From: Microbacterium sp. Marseille-Q6965
GTDB lineage: Bacteria > Actinomycetota > Actinomycetes > Actinomycetales > Microbacteriaceae
DNA length: 64,000 nt
NCBI RefSeq assembly: GCF_946151065.1
Contig: NZ_CAMGZA010000003.1
Span: forward strand, 124,001-188,000
Reading direction: 5' to 3'
The notes under the pieces were generated by a model. The model saw only the letters and a program-made list of their open reading frames with translations. It was not told where the DNA came from and did not search any database. The position numbers were made by a program, and so were the translations under genes. Below, in pieces: positions 8,674 through 10,891 of the stretch; position 1 is the stretch's first letter, and each line of letters starts with the position of its first letter.

Positions 8674-9567
8674 ATGACGACGGCCGACTTCGCGCGCAAC
8701 CGCGACAATTTCTGCTACCGGCACCCCAGCCGGCAGAGCTTCGTGCTGTGCCAGCGCTGCGCCCGCACGATCTGCGGTGAGTGCCAGACGCCCGCCGCGG
8801 TCGGCGTCATCTGCCCCGAGTGCCTTGCGGAGCAGCGGCGTGCCCGCACGCCCGCGCAGAAGCGCGCCCGCCGCCGCTGGGGCAGGGGCGGATCGGTCGT
8901 CGCCGCATCGAGCGGCGGAACGCGCGGCATGATGTGGATCTTCATCCTGACCGCCGTGGCGTTCCTCGTGAACTGGGCCGGGACGACCGTGGGGTTCTCG
9001 CTCAACGACGCGCTCGCGTTCATCGCGCCCCTGATCTACCCCCAGTCCGGCTACTTCCAGCCGTGGCGCGTCGTCACCGTCGCGCTGACTCACGCCGGCT
9101 TCATGCATGTCTTCCTCAACATGCTGTCGTTGTGGATGGTCGGGCGGGCCCTGGAGCCGATGCTCGGGACCGCCCGCTTCGTCACGACCTACCTCCTCTG
9201 TGCCGCGGGCGGGTCTGCTGCCGTCGCCCTGCTGTCCTTCGAGACCCCGGTGGTCGGCGCGTCCGGCGCGGTGTTCGGGCTGTTCGGTGCGCTCATCGTC
9301 ATCGCGCGACACATCGGTGCCGACATGACGGGCATGCTCATCGTGCTCGGCATCAACCTTGTCCTCGGGTTCATCCCGAACGCGGGCATCTCGTGGCAGT
9401 CGCACGTGGGGGGCCTGGTCGTCGGGGCGCTCATCGGGCTCGTCTTCACGCGCACGCGTCGATCCGATCAGCAGGTCCGCCAGCGCGTACTCCTCGGCGT
9501 CATCGGCGCGGGCATCGTCGGCGCCTTCTTCCTCCCGCCGCTGCTCGGGTTCCCCGTCCTCACCTGA
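8674..9567 (+). CDS. Rhomboid intramembrane serine protease with N-terminal zinc-finger
   Basis: Intramembrane protease of 297 residues. The N-terminus is a cysteine-rich B-box-like finger (Cys14, His17, Cys26, Cys29, Cys34, Cys37, Cys47, Cys50), followed by a basic linker to about 70. Then come seven hydrophobic segments from about 85. Rhomboid motifs: HAGFMHVFLNM (about 140-150), the catalytic Ser197 in GASGAVFGLFG and the catalytic His244 in SWQSHVGG. GGA/ATG start at 8674, the first Met in frame after the cyclophilin stop. Its substrate is unknown. A DnaA-box-like cluster follows directly downstream. Confidence 0.9.
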   Translation: MTTADFARNRDNFCYRHPSRQSFVLCQRCARTICGECQTPAAVGVICPECLAEQRRARTPAQKRARRRWGRGGSVVAASSGGTRGMMWIFILTAVAFLVNWAGTTVGFSLNDALAFIAPLIYPQSGYFQPWRVVTVALTHAGFMHVFLNMLSLWMVGRALEPMLGTARFVTTYLLCAAGGSAAVALLSFETPVVGASGAVFGLFGALIVIARHIGADMTGMLIVLGINLVLGFIPNAGISWQSHVGGLVVGALIGLVFTRTRRSDQQVRQRVLLGVIGAGIVGAFFLPPLLGFPVLT

Positions 9568-9584
9568 TCCCCGCAACTCCCCGG

Positions 9585-9733
9585 TTATCCACGGGTTGAT
9601 TGCGACTTTCCACGACTCGCCCGGAGTTCTCCCCGGATTTATCCACAGGTTCTTCCACACTGGGGAGAACCACAGGGGTGTGATTCGCGACGCCGCGCCA
9701 CCGGGGCCGGGGTTTTCCACAGCTCTGCCCACA
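9585..9733. other. Cluster of DnaA-box-like 9-mers
   Basis: Between the rhomboid stop and the crgA terminator lie one perfect TTATCCACA (9639-9647), two 8/9 matches (TTATCCACG 9585-9593, TTTTCCACA 9713-9721), one 7/9 match (9651-9659) and several 6/9 CCACA-ending copies, mostly in one orientation. A 5-bp inverted repeat TACAC-gg-GTGTA lies near 9748-9759. No ORF covers 9568-9826. The bases are unusually A/T-rich at the boxes for this genome. Likely a DnaA-binding site; the role is inferred. Confidence 0.6.
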
Positions 9734-9786
9734 GGTGTGGGAAGAACTACACGGGTGTAATTCCGCGCTGCGGTCCCGGGAAACGA

Positions 9787-9813
9787 CGAACCCCGCCACA
9801 CGGGCGGGGTTCG
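9787..9813 (-). terminator. Terminator of crgA
   Basis: Perfect 11-bp stem CGAACCCCGCC / GGCGGGGTTCG with a 5-nt loop. Read on the minus strand it is followed by CGTTTCCC. It lies 13 bp past the crgA stop. Confidence 0.8.
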
Positions 9814-9826
9814 CGGCCGGCGGGCG

Positions 9827-10060
9827 TCAGCGCCAGCGAGTGGTCATGAGGAAGCCGATGAAGGCGATGCCGAAGCCGATAAGCAGATTGAGAGCGCCGA
9901 TTCCCGGAATGGGCCACGCCTGGTTGGAGAGGTAGAACACCAGGATCCACACCAGCCCGATGAGCATGAAGCCGATCATCACCGGCTTGAACCAGACCGG
10001 GTTGGGGCCCGGATCGCCGACGGGGCGCTCGGGGGTCTCGTCGTCGCTCTTGCGTGCCAT
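9827..10060 (-). CDS. crgA: Cell division protein CrgA
   Basis: Septum-associated membrane protein of 77 residues that in actinobacteria binds FtsZ, PBPs and other divisome members. The polar N-terminus has the conserved PGPNPVWFKP block just before TM1 (about 27-44, MIGFMLIGLVWILVFYL). Next come the short NQAWPIPGIGA extracellular link and TM2 (about 57-72, LLIGFGIAFIGFLM), ending in the conserved TTRWR. Its leaderless-type promoter faces that of the sortase gene. Placement next to pknB and pbpA is the standard actinobacterial arrangement. Confidence 0.95.
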   Translation of the reverse strand: MARKSDDETPERPVGDPGPNPVWFKPVMIGFMLIGLVWILVFYLSNQAWPIPGIGALNLLIGFGIAFIGFLMTTRWR

Positions 10061-10066
10061 GCGGCA

Positions 10067-10120
10067 AGTCTACTGGCCGCCGTCGCGGGCGCCGAGCACC
10101 GTGCAACGCGTCCCTAGACT
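10067..10120. promoter_or_regulatory. Divergent -10 elements for crgA and the sortase gene
   Basis: TAGACT occurs twice: on the minus strand at 10072-10067, 6 nt before the crgA ATG, and on the plus strand at 10115-10120, 6 nt before the sortase GTG. Both point to leaderless mRNAs from a 66-bp spacer. Confidence 0.55.
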
Positions 10121-10126
10121 TGGGGC

Positions 10127-10891
10127 GTGAGCACGGTCGCAGAGCCGCTGCGCGCGCGGCGCCCGCCGCGGCGCGCCTCGGTCGCGGGCGTGCTCGGCGA
10201 GATCCTCATCACCGCGGGCGTCGTGCTGCTGCTGTACGTCGTGTGGCAGCTGTGGATCGGCGACGTCATCTACGGCGCCGAGCGCAACGCCCAGGGGGCC
10301 GAGCTGTCGCAGCAGTGGGAGGCGCGCGCGGACCCGCCACCTCCGCCCGTCGTGGCGGACCCCGAGACGGGCGAGAAGGCGTGGGAGCCGCCGGTCATGC
10401 CCGAGCCGGGCGACGGGGAGCGCTTCGGCGTGATGCACGTGCCGAGGTGGGGTGAGGACTACCGCATGCCGGTCGCCGGCGGCGTCACGCGCGCCGGCAC
10501 GCTCGATCCGATCGGCATCGGGCACTACCCGAACACGGAGATGCCCGGCCAGGTGGGCAACTTCGCGCTGGCCGGGCACCGCACCACCTTCGGCAAGCCG
10601 TTCGCCGAGATCGCCTCGCTGCGCGTGGGCGACGCGATCGTCGTGGAGACGGAGGACGGCTGGTTCACGTACCGTTTCCGCACCCTCGAGTACGTGCGTC
10701 CGGACGAGGTCGACGTGCTCCTGGACGTGCCGCAGGCGCCCGACGTGCCGGCGGACGAGGCGTACATCACGCTGACCGCGTGCTCGCCGCGCTTCTCGCT
10801 GGCGGAGCGGATCATCGCGTACGGGATCTTCGAGTCGTTCCAGCCGCGGGCCGAGGGAGCGCCGGCCTCACTGACCGAGGGGGCCACCTGA
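10127..10891 (+). CDS. Class E sortase
   Basis: Membrane-bound transpeptidase of 254 residues. It has one N-terminal TM (about 22-43), an extracellular Pro-rich linker (PPPPPVVADP near 70-79), and the sortase beta-barrel from about 98. Catalytic residues visible are His151 in LAGHRTTFG, Cys219 in TLTACSPRFS and Arg228 in AERII. Class E enzymes in high-GC Gram-positives attach LAXTG-type proteins or assemble pili; no substrate with such a motif is encoded nearby. The stop overlaps the next start by one base (TGATG). GTG start from the -10 position. Confidence 0.92.
   Translation: MSTVAEPLRARRPPRRASVAGVLGEILITAGVVLLLYVVWQLWIGDVIYGAERNAQGAELSQQWEARADPPPPPVVADPETGEKAWEPPVMPEPGDGERFGVMHVPRWGEDYRMPVAGGVTRAGTLDPIGIGHYPNTEMPGQVGNFALAGHRTTFGKPFAEIASLRVGDAIVVETEDGWFTYRFRTLEYVRPDEVDVLLDVPQAPDVPADEAYITLTACSPRFSLAERIIAYGIFESFQPRAEGAPASLTEGAT

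Follow-up and report, generated by a model that had tools for sequence, protein, structure and literature searches.

A composite element of about 50 bp, in which three DnaA boxes are followed by a palindrome, is, by sequence comparison, widespread in the class Actinomycetes and lies beside the cell-division gene crgA in many families. We read it, with moderate confidence, as an oriC-proximal locus for the control of DnaA, gated by a factor X that would also repress whiB, and datA-like in having a negative effect. To our knowledge, it is an open question by what means actinobacteria keep DnaA in check and tie replication to division, and we know of no Hda, SeqA or datA/DARS loci of the E. coli type in this group.

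The stretch of DNA that we analysed as a whole (the window, 64 kb, C3:124001-188000) belongs to a genome of 2.85 Mb in six contigs. A rhomboid gene and crgA converge in it, with their 3′ ends facing across a non-coding gap (9568-9826), and the cluster of DnaA boxes in this gap consists of two diverged copies of the element. The order is box I, then box II in the same orientation 12 bp on, then box III in opposed orientation, and last the palindrome TNACACNNGTGTNA. Scores in the list below are those of R1, a sequence-only model built from 62 aligned rows, namely 60 of the 80 crgA loci described further on plus both copies of the window.

8674-9567, + strand: rhomboid-family protease gene (PF01694, E 1.1e-31), converging on the element.
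9585-9593, + strand: extra DnaA box TTATCCACG, 8/9, upstream of copy 1 and without a palindrome (box scan).
9637-9686, + strand: element copy 1 (model R1, 49.2 bits, E 4.4e-14; layout scan).
9639-9647, + strand: perfect DnaA box TTATCCACA, box I of copy 1 (box scan).
9651-9659, + strand, as box I: box II of copy 1, TCTTCCACA (layout scan).
9661-9669, strand opposite to boxes I and II: box III of copy 1 (layout scan).
9670-9683: palindrome of copy 1, with 2 mismatches to TNACACNNGTGTNA.
9712-9763, + strand: element copy 2 (model R1, 42.8 bits, E 4.6e-12), with weak boxes II and III, 3 mismatches each.
9713-9721, + strand: DnaA box TTTTCCACA, 8/9, box I of copy 2 (box scan).
9747-9760: palindrome of copy 2, CTACACGGGTGTAA, 1 mismatch; copy 2 contains the exact NACACNNGTGTNATT.
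9787-9813, no strand: GC-rich inverted repeat CGAACCCCGCC...GGGCGGGGTTCG, without a T-run (read from the sequence).
About 9827-10060, - strand: crgA, for cell division protein CrgA (PF06781, E 2.6e-25), converging on the element.

In the layout scan copy 2 has 8 mismatches in total, just above the counting cut-off of 7. The inverted repeat at 9787-9813 is possibly a shared terminator of both convergent genes.

The sequence-only reading had pointed to one perfect and two 8/9 boxes in non-coding DNA, with weaker copies around them. Our scans confirm this: the three boxes start at 9639, 9585 and 9713, within 137 bp, and five boxes with at most two mismatches lie within 180 bp of the gap, starting at 9585. 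The three make up most of the five boxes with at most one mismatch in the whole 64 kb; shuffled windows held 1.58 such boxes on average, and five were reached in 2 of 100 shuffles. When two mismatches are allowed the window holds 44 boxes, with a maximum of two per such stretch outside the gap among the best stretches listed. Genome-wide (2.85 Mb), in a scan which that reading had proposed, the perfect box TTATCCACA occurs nine times, four at dnaA/oriC, one in the gap, one in a cluster at dnaB and three isolated, and the clusters containing perfect boxes beyond dnaA/oriC are those of the gap and of the region upstream of dnaB. This dnaB-upstream cluster (C3:271084-271238; positions 1585-1739 of locus L236) has four boxes with at most one mismatch in 155 bp, all on the same strand.

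For comparison we used loci chosen by similarity of the CrgA protein and not by the element, the best 80 of 241 relatives; by title they are mostly Microbacterium and other Microbacteriaceae, and a few are otherwise (a Planococcus, a Microthrixaceae MAG). A two-part scan for a box plus the palindrome was positive at 78 of the 80 crgA loci (absent from L063 and L064), and a scan for three boxes plus the palindrome, with at most seven mismatches overall, at 79 of 80, versus 0 of 80 single-base-shuffled copies. The only miss of the latter, L064, is a short locus with partial model matches near its end. Of the 79 loci, 77 have a tandem pitch of 12 bp and 2 one of 11 bp, the opposed box comes 9-12 bp further on in all (11 bp in 55), and the first base of the palindrome is 29-34 bp from that of box I; 17 columns are invariant across the 62 aligned rows. 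Where both neighbours are in the usual arrangement (77 loci), the perfect box TTATCCACA was counted 87 times in 17,382 bp of gap versus once in 454,399 bp of flank (76/77 loci). A similar density of boxes at random intergenic sites, the objection foreseen by the sequence-only reading, is thus not what these 454 kb of flanks hold, though the genome of the window does have one other cluster, upstream of dnaB.

In 13 loci the gap measures merely 50-65 bp, and the element is retained there and nearly fills it. Its orientation is reversed in 6 of the 80 loci (L035, L045, L057, L069, L079 and L081), and in L032 crgA itself is flipped, which places the element upstream of it. The number of boxes differs from locus to locus. 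Three Rathayibacter loci (L052, L059 and L063) have a crgA-rhomboid spacing of about 1.1 kb, and the element is kept in them, in two copies. Many Microbacterium crgA-rhomboid gaps also show a TGTTAACA...GTTAACA repeat directly after the palindrome (L005, L015, L016, L018-L022, L025, L030, L033 and L082), in which further weak DnaA boxes may perhaps be seen.

Beyond these loci, R1 matched at E<=0.01 in 143 of the 150 family genomes and in 225 of the 248 genomes of the order, a set that includes the family. In the class, 157 of 296 genomes had a match at E<=1e-4, and 139 had none at that cut-off. Since oriC and other clusters of boxes may match R1 as well, we inspected the positions of matches. 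Fifty loci of other families were chosen with the model (26 top-scoring, 20 hand-picked to span families and 4 Streptomyces-like), and a search with a crgA profile, built partly from the same loci, found the gene in 40 of them. In all 40 the 3′ end of crgA is turned towards the match; in 38, from 17 families besides that of the window, it lies at most 300 bp away, and in the remaining two crgA is 0.6 and 1.6 kb away. At least one of the two neighbours, crgA or rhomboid, was present in 46 of the 50 loci, and neither in L110, L166, L168 and L175. The three-box core with one opposed box was recovered in 42 of 46 other-family loci, which had themselves been selected by model matches.

A further 20 genomes were selected for weak or absent R1 matches (E<=0.1). 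Weaker matches (E 0.001-0.012) adjoin crgA in families f29, f36 and f47 of this set; four genomes, including both of f15, had no match, and several were matched only near dnaA or at unnamed places. We infer that family f22 is Mycobacteriaceae-like, f37 Streptomyces-like and f44 Nanopelagicales-like. In f37, 4 of 27 genomes pass E<=1e-4, taking the family size from a presumably identical class draw; all four matches lie between crgA and rhomboid with a degenerate palindrome, and the exact operator described below was found in 0 of 27. In one Streptomyces-like genome, of 9.2 Mb, crgA and rhomboid flank the element, which is 24 kb away from dnaA.

The origin was expected upstream of the window, at dnaA/dnaN, and this is where it lies: dnaA occupies C3:116085-117485, oriC-type boxes in the dnaA-dnaN gap extend up to 117799, and the window begins at C3:124001. 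The element of this genome stands 17.6 kb from the start of dnaA. We measured the same distance in 58 hand-chosen genomes, all in few contigs and with an R1 match among those listed, the crgA position being confirmed for part of them. In 51 of the 58 the match follows dnaA on the downstream side at no more than 200 kb, a closeness to oriC that is typical of datA, and in 41 the distance is 10.3-35.9 kb. Among the other seven, one is at 307 kb, and in six dnaA and the match are seemingly near opposite contig ends.

The palindrome recurs away from crgA. In the genome of the window NACACNNGTGTNATT is found at two places, in the second copy of the element and ahead of a whiB gene, whose product has the WhiB domain PF02467 and contains ERFGIWGG. 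WhiB2 of M. tuberculosis carries the ERF triplet beside GVWGG, according to the portion of PMC6282962 at hand, and the gene probably encodes a WhiB2-type cell-division regulator. The exact ATNACACNNGTGTNATT is present in 18 of 28 relatives. One site was fetched per genome, both among these relatives and in the class: the relatives gave 12 sites at whiB, 5 at crgA and 1 elsewhere. The exact operator, an 18-bp motif, occurs in 45 of 296 class genomes and not in the other 251, with listed counts of 0 for the reversed pattern, and the 30 class sites fetched are 13 at whiB, 11 at crgA and 6 at other places, among them one upstream of dnaA; 24 of the 30 are the crgA element or the whiB -10 box. Ten reduced genomes yielded, with 2 mismatches allowed, 5-15 sites per genome versus 0-6 for the reversed pattern. 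In the nine of them, of 1.2-1.6 Mb, whose sites were listed, one further strong palindrome each, picked by eye, stands in front of whiB (9/9).

We aligned 22 of the whiB sites, 16 from the order of the window and 6 from f22. In 15 of the 16, TTGAC stands 17-18 bp ahead of a TGTAAT belonging to the palindrome, and the remaining one (L217) has TTGAA instead of TTGAC; at the six f22 sites TGTAAT or TCTAAT overlaps the left end of the palindrome. The palindrome overlaps the -10 region of whiB, and the simplest reading of it there would be a repressor operator. DnaA boxes with at most one mismatch were sought within 150 bp of 31 whiB sites and found at 0 of 31. The recurrence of the operator at whiB, a cell-division gene, hints at a link between the copying of DNA and dividing.

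Some other sites deserve mention. In one genome of family f18 the whiB-type operator stands, in its exact form, some 0.1-0.7 kb ahead of dnaA, depending on where this gene is taken to start (L209, G197:C12:58310-58327), and in an f12 genome one lies about 240 bp upstream of an NlpC/P60-like hydrolase gene (L127/L207, G160:C1:1291951), called a cell-wall hydrolase by eye. Five other loci were fetched (L273-L277), and in the three that were read further (L273, L275 and L277) the site lies inside a gene that by eye is nifS- or argR-like. The regulator's own promoter was sought through conserved operator sites, and only crgA and whiB came up among the sites followed, which in the reduced genomes were a minority of the 2-mismatch sites, taken from those listed.

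Several known regulators were considered as the palindrome protein. BldD was rejected, as none of 9 genomes from the genus, own included, has its C-terminal domain PF21179. Three others were set aside after comparison by eye with what the available parts of the sources give: the published BldM motif TCACcCgnncGgGTGA differs from the palindrome (PMC4125116), the BldO site TGxAATTxCA is a different inverted repeat (PMC5485038), and MtrA binds a direct repeat, unlike the palindrome (PMC6265350). WhiA, with an asymmetric GACAC site and a large regulon in the accessible text of PMC3781837, is a poorly fitting candidate: the palindrome has ACAC in common with this site, but its preceding base need not be G, and the palindrome is symmetric.

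The mechanism that we favour would work as follows. DnaA would bind the tandem box pair (12-bp pitch) and the opposed box about 11 bp further on, and factor X, a dimeric DNA-binding protein on the adjoining palindrome, would gate the DnaA complex. The locus, mostly 10-36 kb from dnaA, would be doubled soon after initiation, and the doubled locus would take up or inactivate DnaA and stop re-initiation, which is datA-like in effect. Factor X would probably also repress whiB, through the same operator in the whiB promoter. The box matches predict binding of DnaA at the element, and the shared palindrome suggests that factor X is one protein at both the element and whiB. The earlier proposal of a second DnaA-binding locus of datA or DARS type gains from conservation, position and layout, its DnaA binding being a prediction. 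A negative effect on initiation is probable from the position of the element and from the S. coelicolor and B. subtilis precedent, these two being its basis, and we consider negative control more likely because the datA-like clusters of these species hold back initiation.

A more far-reaching version, which we put forward tentatively, is that a single regulator has essentially two targets, the whiB promoter and the three-box crgA element, which together would form a cis-encoded timer between replication and division. If so, the fork would double the element and draw off both DnaA and the regulator, shutting initiation and releasing whiB-driven septation, and the regulator would be kept over much of the Actinomycetes, down to reduced genomes of 1.2 Mb. 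A 50-bp element found in many families is a small target for deletion, and an operator that occurs mainly at the crgA element and at whiB could serve as bait for the missing regulator.

Taken by itself, the box layout would point to DARS rather than to negative control. In a DARS-like locus, a possibility that we hold to be doubtful, the boxes would assemble ADP-DnaA, promote nucleotide exchange, raise ATP-DnaA and promote initiation, with factor X acting much as IHF/Fis do at DARS2. We take DARS1 to lie in the bioD-uvrB gap of E. coli and DARS2 in the rppH-mutH gap; in K-12 DNA the boxes of these gaps stand at +160/-174/-186 and +158/-172/-184; each gap holds two tandem boxes with a pitch of 12 bp and, 14 bp from them, a box in opposed orientation. 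They agree with the DARS description in the portion of PMC5742627 that was available. The element shares this three-box core, with one opposed box and, in 77 of 79 loci, a 12-bp tandem pitch, and the palindrome adjoins it as second-factor sites lie beside the DARS2 core (PMC5742627, same portion). However, the opposed box is at 9-12 bp in 79 of 79 loci, mostly at 11, and not at 14, a distance seen in 1 of 42 other-family loci; DARS2 has IHF/Fis sites in place of the palindrome; the element shares its closeness to oriC with datA, as that text describes it (PMC5742627); and the converging triple could equally serve titration.

Plain titration, in which the boxes merely store DnaA and the palindrome is an unrelated operator kept alongside by chance, seems to us unlikely. 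In B. subtilis the loss of six box clusters outside oriC leads to early initiation, in the section of PMC13220808 available, and the variable number of boxes among our loci would suit storage. Against this, the three boxes and the palindrome hardly vary in spacing and orientation across families, and storage alone needs no fixed layout.

We give very little credence to a transcription terminator or RNA hairpin, with boxes II and III as its inverted repeat. The element does sit between convergent genes, the shortest gaps have little space for another hairpin, and II and III can pair in many species (77.9% pairing versus at most 65.4% in slid registers). Yet pairing is no better than with re-dealt partners (78.5%), cells changed on both sides number 6 versus 8.0 by chance, separate GC-rich hairpins adjoin the element in many loci (by eye), a terminator-like site was sought in the window stretch around the element and not found, and neither box I nor the whiB operator would be explained. 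Quite as improbable is an operator or promoter for the expression of crgA or rhomboid, a regulatory role that the sequence-only reading had allowed for. Linkage to the cell-division gene crgA is conserved, and in one locus, L032, the element is upstream of it. In the window, nevertheless, the element adjoins the 3′ ends of the two genes, in all 40 other-family loci that have crgA it faces the 3′ side of that gene, its orientation is reversed in 6 of 80 loci, it is kept in the three Rathayibacter loci despite their wide spacing, and a search for a sigma-70-like promoter in 9450-10200 found none. A second replication origin is thought unlikely, because in species with a 50-65 bp gap (13 loci) the element leaves no room between the genes for the AT-rich unwinding region that an origin has beside its boxes.

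Among known systems datA offers a further likeness to the locus that we propose, being a non-coding cluster of DnaA boxes near oriC with a second-factor site, and a difference, as its essential boxes all point one way and require IHF, whereas the element has one opposed box (PMC5742627, as far as its text was available). In both S. coelicolor and B. subtilis, datA-like box clusters act against untimely initiation (same source, same extent). With B. subtilis the element has in common that it is an oriC-proximal DnaA-box cluster outside oriC, and differs in that there are six clusters there versus one composite element at crgA, plus the dnaB cluster in own genome. S. coelicolor likewise has DnaA-box clusters outside oriC. 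These were reportedly described by Smulczyk-Krawczyszyn et al. in 2006, one of them under the name H69, and S. coelicolor crgA, which we take to be SCO3854, presumably lies on cosmid H69; the Streptomyces cluster H69 and the crgA element may be the same locus. Our searches of the open-licence literature turned up nothing on an element of DnaA boxes at crgA, which is weak evidence of novelty; searches joining DnaA with crgA returned MtrA work only, and nothing with rhomboid. The three-box layout in multiple families and the operator in common with whiB were not met in that literature, and the kind itself, DnaA-box clusters outside oriC, is known: as in such clusters generally, the boxes are close together, above chance in number and away from oriC. 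As far as its sequence goes, the element is DARS-like in layout and datA-like in position.
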